From Duganella sp. Leaf126 (GTDB taxonomy: Bacteria; Pseudomonadota; Gammaproteobacteria; Burkholderiales; Burkholderiaceae_D), in contig NZ_LMNW01000032.1 in NCBI RefSeq assembly GCF_001423125.1, positions 62,214-126,213 on the forward strand: 64,000 nt of DNA, written 5' to 3'. Under the pieces are notes generated by a model that was not told where the DNA came from, searched no databases, and was given only the letters and a program-made list of their open reading frames with translations. Positions 19,782-27,734 of the stretch are shown here, piece by piece (position 1 is the stretch's first letter; every line of letters begins with the position of its first letter). The translations under genes and the position numbers were made by a program.

Positions 19782-22307
<2,526 letters not shown>

Positions 22308-22364: not shown

Positions 22365-22901
22365 TTATTTTTTCGCCGCGACCACCTCGATTTCGACCAG
22401 CCAGCCCGGGTTGCTCAAGCCCGCTACCTGCACCACGGCGCGCGCCGGCAGGTTGGGCTGGCTGCCGCCGAAGTACTGGGTATAAGCGTCCATGAAGCCC
22501 TTGGTGTCGGCCTTGCCGCCCTTGGCGGGATCGCCGACCAGGAACACCTGCATCTTGACCACGTCCGACATCTGCAGCTGCATGCCTTCGAGGATGTCCT
22601 TGATTTTCTTGAGCACCGTCGCGGTCTGGGTCCTGGTGTCGCCAAAGGCGGCCGGCGTATCGGCTGCAGCCGCCTTGTCCACCACGGCCGGCACCTGGCC
22701 GCTGATGAAGTGAATGGTGGCGGTGGGCGGGATGCTGACGGCCAGCGCGATCGGGAAATCCGAGTTCGGAATCTTGTGGCGCACGATGTCCGCGGCCGGC
22801 GCGGCGGGCTTGGCGGGTACGGCCGCCTGCACGGCGCCGGACCACAGGCCGGCTGCCGCAAAGGCGATCGGGGTCAGAACGGTGGCAGCGATATTCTTCA
22901 T
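22365..22901 (-). CDS. Periplasmic RidA-family imine/enamine deaminase
   Basis: 178 residues: a signal peptide (about 1-27, ending AVQA-AV), then a complete RidA/YjgF domain. RidA hydrolyses reactive imines or enamines, such as 2-aminoacrylate, to ketones and ammonia. The Arg that defines active RidA (R105 in E. coli, PARSCVEVA) is kept as R154 (LPARAVVQVA), and the C-terminal VEIEVVA matches the family. Most RidA proteins are cytosolic, so export is notable. It lies between the cytochrome c and TonB receptor genes, downstream of a Tat-exported amine oxidase whose product would be an imine. It probably completes the oxidation in the periplasm. Confidence 0.85.
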   Translation of the reverse strand: MKNIAATVLTPIAFAAAGLWSGAVQAAVPAKPAAPAADIVRHKIPNSDFPIALAVSIPPTATIHFISGQVPAVVDKAAAADTPAAFGDTRTQTATVLKKIKDILEGMQLQMSDVVKMQVFLVGDPAKGGKADTKGFMDAYTQYFGGSQPNLPARAVVQVAGLSNPGWLVEIEVVAAKK

Positions 22902-22916: not shown

Positions 22917-23330
22917 TTAGTGTTTGTTCGACATCTCGGCGGCGCCGTATTGCGCCACGCCCAGCGTGGTGCGCAGCTGGCGGATCTCGTCTTCGGTCAG
23001 TGCATCGGCCCGGTTGTCCCAGGCGCTGCGCACATAGGTGAGGATGGCGGCCAGGTCGCGGTCGTCGATGGTTTCGGAAAAGTCGGGCATGCCGCCGCGT
23101 CCCTTGAGCAGCACGCCCGCCACGGCAGCGTGGTCGCCGGTGACGAACTTGCTGCCGGCCAGCGCCGGGAACGCGCCCGGAATGCCCTTGCCGCTGGCCT
23201 GGTGGCAGGCCGCGCAGTTTTTCATGAACAGCGCCTTGCCGTCCGGGCCCTGGGCCAGGGCCGGGGCAGCGGCCAGCAGCGCCGTGGTCACCAGAGCGCT
23301 CATCAGGGAAGTGGTGAAGAGGGGCTTCAT
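22917..23330 (-). CDS. Periplasmic monohaem cytochrome c
   Basis: 137 residues with a signal peptide (about 1-26, LAQ-GP). Haem attachment is CAACH at 39-43, and the likely Met ligand is in GRGGMPDFSETI. It has class I cytochrome c length and spacing. Its ATG overlaps the amine oxidase stop in an ATGA arrangement, so the two are translationally coupled. This makes the cytochrome the likely electron acceptor from the oxidase, by analogy with other flavin amine dehydrogenases that use cytochrome c. That role is an inference from coupling. Confidence 0.87.
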   Translation of the reverse strand: MKPLFTTSLMSALVTTALLAAAPALAQGPDGKALFMKNCAACHQASGKGIPGAFPALAGSKFVTGDHAAVAGVLLKGRGGMPDFSETIDDRDLAAILTYVRSAWDNRADALTEDEIRQLRTTLGVAQYGAAEMSNKH

Positions 23331-24997
23331 GCGCTGGCCCTCGCGTGGATGCGGGCGATCTGCTGCCAGGCCGATTCGATAGCGCCGGCCTGCCAGCCGG
23401 TCAGATAGCTCAGGTGTTCGCCGGCCAGCATGATGCGGCCCTCGCCCTCCACCAGCGTCGGGTAGGCAGCAGCGCGGGTCTTGTCGGTCCATTCGGCCCA
23501 GCCACCGAGGTTGTACTGGACCCGGTGCCAGGCCACGGAAAAGGCGTTCTCGTATTCCTTGCGGTACTGCGGGAAGATTTTTTCGCCGGCAGCGAGCGCG
23601 AATTCGGCGCGTCCGGCCGGCGACAGGGCGCTGACCTCGATGGCGGCGGTCTGGTACTGGTAATAGCCGAGCACCACGCCCTTCTGCTTCTGCCAGTTCG
23701 ACGACGGCAGCGAGATCGTGTTAATCCCGCGCAGGTCGGTCAGCACGTGGCCGCCGTATATCTGCTCGTCCTCTTCCCAGAAGCGGCGCTTCATCTGCAG
23801 GCCGATCTTGCCCACCGGGGCGTAAGCCACGGTAGCCACGGCCTGCTTGAACCTGTCCGAGAAATCGGTGTCGATCTGGCGCAGCACCGACAGCGGTATC
23901 GTGCACAGGCAGTAGTCGGCCGTGACGGTGCCGCCCTTGCCGCTGGCTGTATCCTTGAAGGCGATGGTCACGCCCCGGTCGTTCTGGCGGATGGTCTGCA
24001 CTTCGGCGCGGTAGCGGATCACCTTGCCCAGGCGCTTTTCGAACGCCTTCGGGATCGCGTCCATGCCGCCCACCGGCTGGAACATGGTCGCCTGCATCGG
24101 GAAGTCGTGCACTGCGCTGTACACATTGCCCAGCTTAGATTCGAGCAGGTCGTGAAAGCCCAGCGGGTCCGACGGTTTGCCCGGTCCCGGTTCCATGCCG
24201 GCGCCCGGATAGACGGCGTAACCGCGACCCGGGCGGCCACGGTAGGTCAGATCGCCGGCCGACAGCTGGCCCTCGTGCACCAGGTAGTCGAGCAGCAGGC
24301 GCCGGTCGTCGGCGCTCAGGGTCTGGTCCAGCTGCCCGTTCTTGATCGACTTGGCCAGCAGCTCGTCGACGTGACCGCGCATATCGGCCTTGACCTCCTT
24401 GATGCGCATGCGCTTGCCCGAGAACGGTCCGGCGTTTTCGGAATACACGTACGCGTGGTCGTTCTCGTTGACCATCACTTCGAGCGGCACTTCGAACAGG
24501 CGCGTATAGTGCAGCGTGGACTGGTGGTGCAGCGGGATGCGCCACGGGCCGTGGTTGATGTAATGGCCGGCGTCGAAGGCGCAGGTCTGTTTCTCTCCTC
24601 CGAGCTCGGTCAGGGCGAAGCCCCGGCGCGCACTCTGGCAGCGGCCGCCGGCAAACTCGCGCGCTTCGAGGATCTGGCACTGGTAACCGAGCTTGCCGAG
24701 TTCGTAGGCCGCGGTCAGGCCGGCCAGGCCGGCACCGAGGATCACGACCTTCTTGCCCTTGCCGCTGCCGGTCAGCGCCGGCGGCCCGGATACGGTGGAA
24801 TTGATGCCCATGCCCCAGGCGTTCATGGTGGTCAACAACAGGCCGGTGCCGCCCACCGCCGCCGCCCGGTACAGGAAATCCCTGCGGGTGACGGCTGCGC
24901 CCGGGCCGGAAGGGCCAGAAGAAGCAGCCGACCCGGCCGACCCAAATGAACTAAACGATTTAAACGGTGTAAACGGTTTTACTGTTTTGCTATCCAT
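23327..24997 (-). CDS. Tat-exported FAD-dependent amine oxidase
   Basis: 556 residues of the flavin monoamine/L-amino-acid oxidase superfamily. A twin-arginine motif (TRRDFLYRAA, RR at 38-39) follows an unusually long, Ser/Gly/Phe-rich N-region. The FAD-binding GAGLAG lies at 88-93 with the acid-ended second strand (QILEAREFAGGRC), and the C-terminal FAD motif reads RIMLAGEHLSYLTGWQAGAIESA. The start is supported by GAGGAAAGCAG directly upstream, so the long N-region is likely real. It would oxidise an amine or amino acid to an imine in the periplasm. The following cytochrome c (overlapping), RidA and TonB receptor genes make a coherent operon. The substrate is unknown. Confidence 0.87.
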   Translation of the reverse strand: MDSKTVKPFTPFKSFSSFGSAGSAASSGPSGPGAAVTRRDFLYRAAAVGGTGLLLTTMNAWGMGINSTVSGPPALTGSGKGKKVVILGAGLAGLTAAYELGKLGYQCQILEAREFAGGRCQSARRGFALTELGGEKQTCAFDAGHYINHGPWRIPLHHQSTLHYTRLFEVPLEVMVNENDHAYVYSENAGPFSGKRMRIKEVKADMRGHVDELLAKSIKNGQLDQTLSADDRRLLLDYLVHEGQLSAGDLTYRGRPGRGYAVYPGAGMEPGPGKPSDPLGFHDLLESKLGNVYSAVHDFPMQATMFQPVGGMDAIPKAFEKRLGKVIRYRAEVQTIRQNDRGVTIAFKDTASGKGGTVTADYCLCTIPLSVLRQIDTDFSDRFKQAVATVAYAPVGKIGLQMKRRFWEEDEQIYGGHVLTDLRGINTISLPSSNWQKQKGVVLGYYQYQTAAIEVSALSPAGRAEFALAAGEKIFPQYRKEYENAFSVAWHRVQYNLGGWAEWTDKTRAAAYPTLVEGEGRIMLAGEHLSYLTGWQAGAIESAWQQIARIHARASA

Positions 24998-25328
24998 CTG
25001 CTTTCCTCGCCAGTCTGCTGAAAAATCCCTGGGGTGACTTGCGTCCCCATAGTCCTCTCATAGCAAACGGCATGCCATATTTGAAAGCCAAATAAACATC
25101 ATTCCTGGCGGTCGACAGGCAGTACCGGCGTGCGAAAAAAGTCGTTACGTCACTGCGATGTTCCCGGCGGCGGTCGGCCGCGAGACCCGTTCGCCGCCAC
25201 ACTTTATTTTTCTGGAACAGACTTTATTGACGGCCCCGCAGGTCACCGCAAATGGATCCGTGCGCGCAGCCGCGCACCACCACATGGCGGCGGTGCATTG
25301 CGGCAGGACGAAAAATAAGGGAAAGGAG
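24998..25328. other. Intergenic region upstream of the amine oxidase operon
   Basis: No gene is supported. It must contain the promoter of the minus-strand amine oxidase operon and the 3' flank of the TnsB-like gene. I searched by eye for a hairpin with U-tract after the TnsB-like stop, and for Tn7-type terminal repeats, and saw neither. Confidence 0.4.
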
Positions 25329-27371
25329 TCAGCCGGCAAAGCTGAACTGGGCACGGGCGTTGCTGCGCGTGCCGGCGCTGGCCGCAGGCTCGCCAACGGC
25401 AACGGCGGCAGGCAGATAGGCCATTTCCACCGCGCTCAGGTGGTGGCGCACGCCGCTGGCGTCGGCCAGGTGGCAGGCGTGGAACTGCCTCGGCGCGGCA
25501 GTGTCGAGCAGGTAGATGGTGTCGAGGCTGGACGGGTCGTACGCCACCTTGACCTGCCAGCCGCCGCGCTGGCGTGCACGGTCGTACCAGCGCTCCTGCA
25601 CCGCGCGCGCACAGGTATAGATGCTGCCGGCGAAATGCAGACCGTCGCTTCCGACCAGCGCCGGCGCCACCGGCATCAGGCTGCAGCGCACCAGGTGCTC
25701 GGGATAGGTCTTGAGCGCCCCGCCCCGGTGCTGCGTGCCCCAGTGCCACAGCACCGCCGGCGCCGGCGAACCGTCGCTGCCCTGGCAGTTGTTGTAGTAC
25801 AGGATGCAGTCGATGACGATGCGGGTCAATTGCGCCACATCGAGCACGCCGTCGAGCCGGCACGGCTTGCCGGCGGCATGCGCCCCCTGCACCAGCTCAG
25901 GCGCCAGCAGCCGGAAACGCCGCGCCAGCACCTGCTGCCAGTTGCCGGGGCCATGGTCGGCAGTCACGCAGCGCAGGTTGAAATTGGTGTGCAGCGTGCC
26001 GAAGTCGCCCCACTCGGCGCCGGCCAGGCCGGCAATCGGCGCGGCCGCGAACAGGATGTCGGGCAGATGGCGGCCCGGCCACTGCGCAGCCTCGATGCGG
26101 CGGCCGAACTGCTGGCAGTAGCGCTGCTTGTCGATGCAGCAGCCGGCCAGCGCCAGCATCGCCTGCGGCCAGTCGGCCGGCCCCAGCCCGACATGGATGC
26201 CGGTCACCAGCCCGCTGTAGGTGTCCTGCACCACGTAGAGATGGGGGCGGCCGATGGCCTGTGCGCGGTCGGCGCGCGACACCAGCTGCACATCGGCGCA
26301 CACCACGTCGAGCCGGTAGCTGGCGCCGGGCCGGTCGCCAATCGAGCGCCAGGCCGCCCGCGCGACGCCGGCAGCGGGGTCGGCTTCGGTGCCGGCGGCG
26401 GGGTCGACTTGAGTGCCGGCTGCGGGATCGACCTGGGCGCCGGGTGCCGGGCCGGCTTGGGCGCCCGCGACGGGATAGACCTGGGCGCGGGCTGCGGCGC
26501 CGGCGGCAACGGCCAGCGCGGACGCCGCCGGCCCCGCATGGCGCTGGCCCGCAGCGGCCATGGTTGGCGGCGCGGCGCCGCCGTGACGGCGCGCCACTTC
26601 CGGCGGATGGTCATGGTCGTGGTCGAGCCAGTAGTTGAACTGGCCGAAGGTGGGCAGCATGGCGGCGCTGCGCTGCGGCGCCGCCTGCACCCGGCCGCTG
26701 GCCGGATCGATGTGGCGCTCGGCGAAGAACTCGTCGAGCATCTGCCGGTAGGCGCCCAGGCGCGAAAACTTGCGGTGACCGGCCGCATAGCGGGCAATCG
26801 CCACCCGGAACACGCGGCGCACCTCCTCGTCCGCGTTCACGCCCGGTCCGGCGTCGGCGCCGTTCTTGCGCGGCCGGCCGCGCTTGACGCCTTCCGACGA
26901 TTGCCGCACCTTGCCCTTGCCGCCGGAATTGCAGTAATCGGGCAGCAGCGCATTGGGCGTCTGCCCGCGCTGCCAGTAGCGGCGCAGGTAGCGGTAAACG
27001 GTGGGATGCGACACCTGGTGTTCGGCGGTGGCGCGGGCAATCATCTGGCCGCGCTGGCGCGGGTCGTAGATGTCCGGCTCCTGCGCCACCAGCGCGGCGA
27101 TGATCTGCCAGGCGCGCGCGCGCAGTTGCAGGTACTTGGGTGGCAGCAGTTCCTGGCTGACCACCATCAGGTAAGGATCGGCCGGCAGGACGCTGGCGCG
27201 GCCGGCGCGCAGGTCGTCCAGCAGGTCCGGCAGCTGGACCAGCACCACGTCCGCCGTGCGGGCGCAGACGTCGTAGACGTAGGCGTGGCGCTGACCGGGA
27301 TCGATCCACAAAACGCGGACGGTGCGCGCCGATGGCTGCGGGTAATGCAGCAAATCGTTGCGCAGTAACAT
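25329..27371 (-). CDS. TnsB-like (Tn7/Mu-type) transposase homologue with a degenerate catalytic triad
   Basis: 680 residues, close to the 702 of Tn7 TnsB and collinear with it. The DNA-binding region is well kept (VSHPTVYRYLRRYWQRGQ, TPNALLPDYCNSGGKGK). So are the RNase H-like core (YRLDVVCADVQLVSR, IGRPHLYVVQD, WPGRHLPDIL) and the C-terminal domain (LWHWGTQHRGGALK, VAYDPSSLDTIYLLD). Against recalled Tn7 TnsB, catalytic D273 matches D355. However, D361 (LLADRGEL) falls on A443 in LFAAAPIA, and E396 (GIVESTFR) falls on A483 in QVLARRFR. The protein should therefore bind DNA but not cut or join it. An Ala/Pro/Gly repeat (residues 300-339) sits before the core. No tnsA, tnsC, tnsD/tniQ or end repeats are near. 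Its ATG overlaps the stop of a 45-residue ORF. It looks like a domesticated or regulatory transposase rather than a mobile element. Confidence 0.85.
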   Translation of the reverse strand: MLLRNDLLHYPQPSARTVRVLWIDPGQRHAYVYDVCARTADVVLVQLPDLLDDLRAGRASVLPADPYLMVVSQELLPPKYLQLRARAWQIIAALVAQEPDIYDPRQRGQMIARATAEHQVSHPTVYRYLRRYWQRGQTPNALLPDYCNSGGKGKVRQSSEGVKRGRPRKNGADAGPGVNADEEVRRVFRVAIARYAAGHRKFSRLGAYRQMLDEFFAERHIDPASGRVQAAPQRSAAMLPTFGQFNYWLDHDHDHPPEVARRHGGAAPPTMAAAGQRHAGPAASALAVAAGAAARAQVYPVAGAQAGPAPGAQVDPAAGTQVDPAAGTEADPAAGVARAAWRSIGDRPGASYRLDVVCADVQLVSRADRAQAIGRPHLYVVQDTYSGLVTGIHVGLGPADWPQAMLALAGCCIDKQRYCQQFGRRIEAAQWPGRHLPDILFAAAPIAGLAGAEWGDFGTLHTNFNLRCVTADHGPGNWQQVLARRFRLLAPELVQGAHAAGKPCRLDGVLDVAQLTRIVIDCILYYNNCQGSDGSPAPAVLWHWGTQHRGGALKTYPEHLVRCSLMPVAPALVGSDGLHFAGSIYTCARAVQERWYDRARQRGGWQVKVAYDPSSLDTIYLLDTAAPRQFHACHLADASGVRHHLSAVEMAYLPAAVAVGEPAASAGTRSNARAQFSFAG
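26355..26474 (-). repeat. 24-bp tandem repeat encoding five 8-residue units inside the TnsB-like gene
   Basis: Five consecutive 8-residue units (PVAGAQAG, PAPGAQVD, PAAGTQVD, PAAGTEAD, PAAGVARA) at residues 300-339. They form an Ala/Pro-rich flexible linker between the DNA-binding and RNase H-like parts. The frame is maintained throughout. Confidence 0.85.
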
Positions 27372-27508
27372 CAGCGCCCCTTGCCGCCAGCGCCGAACGG
27401 CCGCGTATCGACCATGATGGCGTGCTGGCCGACACCGGCCTTATCGCGCAGCAGCGGCGGCTTGATCGCGTCGATCAAGGTATTCCACAGTTTCCTGAAT
27501 GGCGTCAT
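27371..27508 (-). CDS. 45-residue hypothetical protein coupled to the TnsB-like gene
   Basis: Short ORF beginning MTPFRKLWNTLIDAIKPPLL and ending FGAGGKGR. GGAG lies 6 bases before the ATG; an in-frame upstream ATG at 27532 has its GGAG too close to work well. Its TGA shares one base with the ATG of the TnsB-like gene (TGATG), the arrangement expected for translational coupling. The N-terminal half could form an amphipathic helix; the C-terminal tail is Gly/basic. No family is recognised. It could be a leader peptide or a small partner protein. Confidence 0.55.
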   Translation of the reverse strand: MTPFRKLWNTLIDAIKPPLLRDKAGVGQHAIMVDTRPFGAGGKGR

Positions 27509-27562: not shown

Positions 27563-27734
27563 GTTTATGACATTTGTATGAAATCAATATGCAAAAAGCG
27601 GGCCACCCTGTCCACGCGATGACAGCAGCGTGACGCCAGCGTGCCAGGCACCATGTTGGTACTTTCACAAGCTGCTTCTGGTGCGGCCGGGCGCGCGGCC
27701 GGCGGCGCCTGCACCGTGTTCGTGCGGAAATAAA

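Follow-up and report, generated by a model that had tools for sequence, protein, structure and literature searches.

A domesticated, catalytically degenerate TnsB as a probable regulator of an amino-acid oxidase operon in Duganella

The protein described here, TnsB*, is encoded in a 64-kb stretch of DNA (64,000 nucleotides), which was analysed as a whole and is referred to below as the window. TnsB* is probably a domesticated TnsB that has turned into a transcription factor, is wired into nitrogen control and regulates the amino-acid oxidase operon that lies beside it. The evidence that carries this reading is drawn from sequence and encompasses homology, loss of the catalytic triad, selection, synteny, enrichment of transposon-end-type sites and promoter motifs. 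The genus is referred to as Duganella on the basis of its named records, which are Duganella, Rugamonas and one Oxalobacteraceae bacterium.

TnsB* and the Tn7 TnsB family

The gene and its parts are located as follows.

25329..27371, minus strand: TnsB*, a domesticated, catalytically degenerate TnsB of 680 aa (phmmer, Pfam, alignment, orthologues)
26610..27371, minus strand: N-terminal DNA-binding half, residues 1-254 (phmmer stretch 57-253, N-terminal-only homologues, lowest omega)
26337..26609, minus strand: low-complexity linker, residues 255-345, with AQVDPAAGT-like repeats (translation; mostly outside the matched stretches)
25452..26336, minus strand: degenerate RNase-H/Mu-C half, residues 346-640 (Pfam, phmmer, alignments)
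26307-26309, 26043-26045 and 25923-25925, minus strand: codons of the triad residues D355, A443 and A483
27371..27508, minus strand: 45-aa ORF (MTPFRKLW...VDTRPF...), the stop of which overlaps the TnsB* start codon (ORF reading)

A first-pass annotation, made from the letters of the sequence, had described the protein as collinear with Tn7 TnsB over its full length, and this is borne out by phmmer, in which Tn7 TnsB (PDB 7pik, 7pik_A) is matched at E 9.2e-69 over two query stretches, 57-253 and 344-641. The Pfam domain Mu-transpos_C is also found above its cut-off, which together with the phmmer match places TnsB* in the Tn7 TnsB family by descent. The rve domain gives no Pfam match in TnsB*; since the intact TnsB of L159 likewise has no Pfam match at 1e-4, its absence is uninformative. 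When TnsB* is aligned with Tn7 TnsB and two intact relatives, the positions of the Tn7 catalytic residues D273, D361 and E396 are occupied by D355, A443 and A483, just as had been read previously.

The reading frame is uninterrupted over all 680 codons, and its codon-position GC is 0.75/0.52/0.88, the third position being as high as that of the neighbouring genes (mostly 0.85-0.91); the earlier description of an intact frame with neighbour-like codon usage thus holds. TnsB* is present as a single copy in its own genome. The linker, residues 255-345, is poorly conserved, and its in-frame repeats (26337-26609, minus strand) make it longer in the window protein than in other members of the genus. 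Relatives of TnsA, TnsC and TnsD are absent from the window, as had been noted for TnsA and TnsC, with tblastn searches using the L159 and L160 proteins giving only matches of E >= 0.012; by these searches the locus does not display the Tn7-like gene set, in which tnsA, tnsC and tniQ/tnsD stand beside tnsB. PADLOC matched nothing, and no AAA+ sigma54-interaction domain was matched in TnsB* by Pfam at E <= 1. An AlphaFold2 model of TnsB*, built with 19 relatives, was too poor for use (pLDDT 46.9, pTM 0.28).

The 45-aa ORF upstream belongs to no Pfam family, and a comparable small ORF (MTSFRKLW..VDTRPF) is found in part of the genus loci. It was considered as a remnant of TnsA and rejected, since it has no TnsA similarity.

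Orthologues and synteny within the genus

TnsB* is followed in the window by four genes on the same strand, which from their order are assumed to form one transcript.

23327..24997, minus strand: flavin L-amino-acid oxidase/amine oxidase (Pfam Amino_oxidase 9.5e-47; PDB 2jae 5.8e-84)
22917..23333, minus strand: small c-type cytochrome
22365..22901, minus strand: RidA-family (enamine/imine deaminase-like) protein
19782..22307, minus strand: TonB-dependent receptor (domain search)

The oxidase is closest to the L-amino acid oxidase 2jae, and its N-terminus, as read from the translation, is twin-arginine-like. Periplasmic deamination of amino acids under nitrogen limitation would fit this set of genes, and the role of the operon is probably nitrogen scavenging.

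An orthologue of TnsB* is found in 51/66 same-genus genomes, comprising 47/60 (the own genome included) and 4/6 further ones. The usual gene order is DEAD-box helicase, TnsB*, oxidase, cytochrome c, RidA and TonB receptor, with the oxidase directly downstream of TnsB* in 49/51 genomes. Both orthology and synteny, which had been suggested as a check on the locus, therefore extend through the genus. In the two remaining genomes (G017 and G052) TnsB* has no adjacent oxidase, and none is found elsewhere in the genome at E <= 1e-60. In the 15 genomes of the genus that lack TnsB*, the only oxidase found at E <= 1e-100 is a 41%-identity paralogue (G014), and the helicase is retained in 14 of them. 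At these empty sites (L172-L185) the helicase is followed, in 14/14 readable loci, by an alpha/beta hydrolase that corresponds to the gene beyond the TonB gene in the window, such that the five-gene block is missing. At the level of the family (294 genomes), the oxidase is found at E <= 1e-170 in 37 genomes, in which TnsB* is present in 31/37 and missing in 6/37.

The DDE triad is found in none of 48 aligned same-genus rows, which carry DNE (16), APE (6), DAA (3), DHA (3), EDA (3), DPE (3) or other combinations (14); an aspartate at the second position is seen in just three rows, those with E first and A third. As no DDE occurs among these varied triads, loss of the triad is clade-wide, and the window's D-A-A is common to only two other rows. 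By its triad TnsB* does not qualify as an active TnsB. In two genomes, G027 (L059) and G048 (L073), TnsB* has been broken separately, leaving N-terminal parts of 263 and 369 aa; these two rows were left out of the triad count. One gene split over two contigs (L045 and L046) was left out of the motif, triad and selection counts, and a broken copy from a genome that is 48% complete (L147) was dropped.

Selection on the two halves

Pairwise codon maximum likelihood gave a whole-gene omega of 0.058-0.152 for 21 pairs, each of which rejects a value of 1 (2dlnL at least 42). These pairs include N-terminal-only forms, and omega is far below 1 throughout; for the TnsB* copies that have no oxidase (G017, G052) it is 0.08. 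The dN/dS calculation that had been proposed as a check therefore reveals purifying selection, with omega of 0.06-0.15. The N-terminal half has a lower omega than the C-terminal half in 13/14 full-length pairs (0.022-0.082 vs 0.051-0.165), the one exception being L071/L072 (0.155 N-terminal vs 0.044 C-terminal), a pair with a mis-called start codon. Identity of the window protein to L041 is 80% in the N-terminal and 68% in the C-terminal half, and to L074 57% and 47%. As estimated from these sequences, selection is strongest on the DNA-binding half, and the dead catalytic half is also under purifying selection.

This is the reverse of what is seen in the intact, DDE-containing TnsBs of L159 and L160, in which the catalytic half is better conserved (64%) than the DNA-binding half (40.5%). 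This reversal, the omega values, and orthology and synteny through the genus all support the proposal of the first-pass annotation, a DNA-binding, non-cutting TnsB maintained by selection. An immobile orthologous locus, purifying selection and the loss of catalytic residues together mark TnsB*, as far as sequence allows, as a likely domesticated transposase.

Sister genera and phylogeny

In the sister genera g44, g52 and g59 the homologue is an ORF of around 240-270 aa that consists of the DNA-binding half only, a state that the broken L059 and L073 copies resemble. In g44 (two loci) and in the g59 'A' copies (nine loci) it is again located before the oxidase, cytochrome c, RidA and TonB genes, so the five-gene unit is found in these two other genera in other genomic contexts. 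In g52 (ten loci) and in the g59B copies (six), TnsB* is found without the oxidase operon and without local exact AATAAAGT sites (see below). The unit lies beside a phasin gene in g44 (2/2) and g59A (4/9), where further neighbours (acyltransferase, sensor, FMN reductase) are partly those of g52 and g59B; the phasin, acyltransferase and FMN reductase were identified from Pfam for L129. The A and B loci may represent one ancestral locus from which the operon was later lost in g52 and g59B, and the five-gene unit may have moved as a block in Duganella.

In L134-L137, L139, L140 and the g52 loci, TnsB* is situated beside the phasin gene with a sigma54-type promoter and no oxidase, and 4/6 g59B genomes contain an operon-linked second copy. 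Several g52 loci have a TTGATATATATCAA-like palindrome between phasin and TnsB*, which we take to resemble an FNR-type box.

In a phylogenetic tree the 77 domesticated rows all fall together, apart from 17 canonical TnsBs (100/98; 17/18 canonical rows were taken in, with L150 left out), and the genus clade is supported at 99/100, while the branching of the other groups is without resolution. When 399 genomes of the order were surveyed with the N-terminal half as query, six matched at E <= 1e-20, namely the own genome, one g59 form and four long frames, two of which (L159 and L160) are located in glmS-linked tnsABCD elements.

Intact relatives and related systems

The closest intact TnsBs found are those of L159 and L160, where tnsABCD sets stand beside glmS (SIS and GATase domains); TnsA, TnsC, TnsD and GlmS of L159 were named by their Pfam domains. 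Their N-terminal part is 42-45% identical to that of TnsB*, and the interval between glmS and tnsA harbors AATAAAG/AATAAAA-type repeats with a 20-bp period. The right end of Tn7 contains four partly overlapping 22-bp TnsB sites and a DNA bend (PMC11406308, available part), and a Tn7-end primer that reads tgtgggcggacaataaagtcttaaactgaa, and so contains acaataaagt, includes AATAAAGT (PMC1475584, available part). The presence of AATAAAGT-type repeats both at the ends of intact glmS-linked elements and in the Tn7 primer means that the same sequences at the promoter described below may be TnsB sites. Tn7 TnsB therefore shares with TnsB* its DNA-binding and RNase-H/Mu-C regions and this end motif; unlike Tn7 TnsB, TnsB* has no catalytic acids, no tnsA, tnsC and tnsD and no flanking ends, and it occupies a fixed chromosomal locus with a sigma54-type promoter.

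Tandem sites were searched in 34 genomes with two mismatches allowed, and because the numbers of 2-mismatch matches resemble those of a reversed-pattern control, only matches with 0-1 mismatch were used. Tandem repeats are found at the 3' end of glmS in six TnsB*-bearing genomes (L187, L189, L190, L194, L196 and L202), GlmS being recognised by its sequence start and checked with Pfam in two of them (L187, L196). In G332 (L194, L195) tandem Tn7-type repeats lie about 32 kb apart in opposite orientation, one of them beside glmS and tns-like genes, and perhaps bound a whole Tn7-like element. The tandem matches of g52 were considered as targets of the B copies and rejected, as 6/19 stretches are located at the glmS 3' end and no common target was recognisable among the others.

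TldR derives from TnpB. As a bacterial mobile-element protein reused as a transcription factor, TnsB* would be comparable to the TldR transcription factor family as described in the available part of PMC13418256; TldR is RNA-guided, whereas TnsB* descends from a DDE transposase and would recognise DNA sequence directly. In eukaryotes FHY3/FAR1 and ZBED6 are likewise, in the portions of the sources available, transposase-derived DNA-binding proteins at host promoters, although they stem from other transposase families.

Promoters of TnsB* and of the oxidase operon

The promoter elements predicted in the window are listed below; the RpoN and NtrC consensus motifs are those of E. coli, as given in the available part of PMC8743547.

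27590..27605, minus strand: sigma54-type -24/-12 element TGGCCCGCTTTTTGCA upstream of TnsB* (strict motif)
27711..27725, minus strand: NtrC-like box GCACGAACACGGTGC, exact GCAC-N7-GTGC (motif)
27648..27662, minus strand: second NtrC-like box GTACCAACATGGTGC, one mismatch (motif)
25062..25077, minus strand: sigma54-type element TGGCATGCCGTTTGCT of the amine-oxidase operon (strict motif)

The strict sigma54 motif is found upstream of TnsB* in 47/50 genus loci (0.06 expected), 1/2 g44, 7/9 g59A, 8/10 g52 and 6/6 g59B loci, and upstream of the oxidase in 43/50 genus (0.16 expected), 2/2 g44 and 9/9 g59A loci. No such element occurs downstream of TnsB* at the B loci (0/16). A sigma54-like element also precedes 4/8 oxidases that lack TnsB*, which argues that sigma54 control of the oxidase is independent of TnsB*.

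An exact GCAC-N7-GTGC box, a pattern picked after two sites of L071/L072 had been read and thus partly post hoc, is located within 200 nt of the TnsB* element in 40/50 genus loci (0.46 expected) and 3/6 g59B loci, with none upstream of TnsB* in g44 (0/2), g59A (0/9) or g52 (0/10). The genus oxidase promoters have no exact NtrC box (0/43), and 29/43 have one with a single mismatch (10.7 expected). Scanning with the NtrC 17-mer at up to three mismatches identified 16/50 genus loci on each side (1.3 and 1.7 expected), and a scan with N8-9 spacing found little.

Transposon-end-type sites at the oxidase promoter

Three predicted sites of transposon-end type lie between TnsB* and the oxidase in the window.

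25221..25228, minus strand: TnsB-end-type site 1, AATAAAGT (8-mer counts, predicted site)
25201..25208, minus strand: TnsB-end-type site 2, AATAAAGT, 20 bp from site 1 (8-mer counts, predicted site)
25135..25142, plus strand: weak inverted site AAAAAAGT, one mismatch, 65 bp upstream of the -24 element

The two AATAAAGT copies are the sole exact ones in the window. The first-pass annotation was mistaken in seeing no terminal repeats nearby, as these lie around 100-130 bp past the TnsB* stop; with the AATAAAGT core as query, they form the only pair in 64 kb, on one side of the gene, rather than left and right ends that flank it.

AATAAAGT, which was spotted in an alignment before it was counted, is the commonest 8-mer in the 50 genus regions between TnsB* and the oxidase, where it occurs in 33/50 loci, with 40 sites vs 0.47 expected and a maximum of 2 in 100 shuffles. 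It is found in 8/9 g59A loci (16 sites vs 0.11 expected) and 1/2 g44 loci (1 site vs 0.04 expected), and exact copies occur neither upstream of TnsB* nor at the B loci. With up to one mismatch, a site is present in 54/54 loci with a sigma54 element (8.4 expected), giving 106 sites vs 9.3 expected over three genera, although the loci are related and these counts overstate their independence. Excluded from this count were 7/61 rows with no sigma54 element within 520 nt of the stop, among them L071 and L072, which have no operon, and L059 and L073, which have early stops. One subclade carries AACAAAGT/AATGAAGT variants, and an inverted site is found at -43/-44 in 16 loci of three genera; the window promoter has no site at -43. 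Most genus loci have single sites, the exact tandem pair being present in 7/50 and a pair within one mismatch in 11/50 genus, 2/2 g44 and 3/9 g59A loci.

Eight oxidase loci without TnsB* served as controls: none has an exact AATAAAGT site, and three have a site with up to one mismatch (0.99 expected, maximum 4), which is no clear enrichment. Upstream of TnsB* in the genus there is a mild excess at up to one mismatch (11 vs 4.6 expected, maximum 10). As would be expected of a regulator, predicted cognate sites are thus found at the promoter of the putative target and are not enriched at the control loci.

Proposed role and alternatives

A Tn7-type TnsB would have been captured in an ancestor of the family, after which the catalytic acids were lost and the end-recognition domain was kept. 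Expression of TnsB* is probably driven by a sigma54 promoter and, in Duganella, is probably controlled by NtrC, so that the protein would be produced when nitrogen is limiting. TnsB* would then bind AATAAAGT-type sites at the promoter of the adjacent amino-acid-oxidase/cytochrome c/RidA/TonB operon. The direct sites, one or two in number, lie 90-210 bp upstream of the sigma54 -24 element, and some lineages have the inverted site at -43 in addition. With no recognisable AAA+ domain, TnsB* is unlikely itself to activate sigma54 RNA polymerase, and it most likely bends or loops the DNA, tuning the enhancer-binding protein. We infer binding by TnsB*, control by NtrC and the operon as target from the motifs and their placement, and for the sign of regulation we lean slightly towards co-activation over repression. 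Among the three roles put forward by the first-pass annotation, that of regulator fits best, as the sigma54-type promoter next to the gene carries Tn7-end-type sites in three genera. The present results lend no support to the role of a nucleoid protein.

In part of the family the promoter may even be a miniature transposon-end pair, in which one or two direct TnsB sites face an inverted site around 80-150 bp away and TnsB* synapses a catalysis-free, transpososome-like loop from enhancer to sigma54 promoter. This is unlikely, since tandem pairs are a minority and the window has no -43 site.

The main results against an exclusive link between TnsB* and the operon are the occurrence of TnsB* without the operon and of the oxidase without TnsB* (6/37). 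The retention of TnsB* without the oxidase in G017, G052, g52 and g59B implies another role or other targets at least there. It is nevertheless a rather poor prospect that TnsB* is a regulator with its main targets elsewhere, for which the sites at the oxidase promoter would be a minor target or belong to another protein: the B-type loci do lack exact sites, as such a regulator would allow, but the sites are missing where TnsB* is missing and agree with the end sequences of the nearest intact TnsBs, and the exact tandem pattern occurs once in the own genome, at the oxidase promoter (a reversed-pattern control also gave one match).

The first-pass annotation also raised the role of an immunity factor. 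TnsB* would in that case bind incoming Tn7-like ends and block transposition as a dominant-negative competitor. The AATAAAGT-type repeats of 20-bp period at Tn7-type ends of the family could be bound by TnsB*, and such a function would suit its retention in genomes without the oxidase. However, tandem repeats stand at the glmS 3' end in the six TnsB*-bearing genomes named above, and no tandem match at up to one mismatch was obtained from four genomes of the genus that lack TnsB*, so this small set gives no sign of exclusion. Nor does an immunity role account for the sigma54 promoter or for the presence of the sites at a host promoter. These results weaken the proposal, to which we assign only a slim chance. 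That the locus is a relic, with a decaying tnsB and one end of an inactivated element kept by chance or hitch-hiking, is very improbable, for despite the lack of tnsACD nearby, the N-terminal-only copies and the broken copies in G027 and G048, the estimates of selection contradict it (omega well under 1 in 21/21 pairs, whole-gene 2dlnL at least 42), and the sites kept in three genera and a five-gene unit that stays together in different contexts also speak against it.

Implications

Transposases that came to serve as transcription factors are familiar from eukaryotes and, to our knowledge, have been little documented in bacteria. No report of a domesticated TnsB regulator was found in the literature searched, outside which most subscription papers lie, or in the available part of the review PMC8987985. 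Three kinds of protein are open to comparison, namely intact relatives together with their ends, dead full-length forms and forms reduced to the DNA-binding part, which makes each step from transposase to regulator testable. If a loop of the kind described above is indeed synapsed, a transposition synapse would have become a nitrogen-responsive gene switch, and the sister genera, in losing the catalytic half, would have gone further towards a simple transcription factor. The transposon-end-like sites at a host promoter lead to a predicted regulator for a probable nitrogen-scavenging operon.
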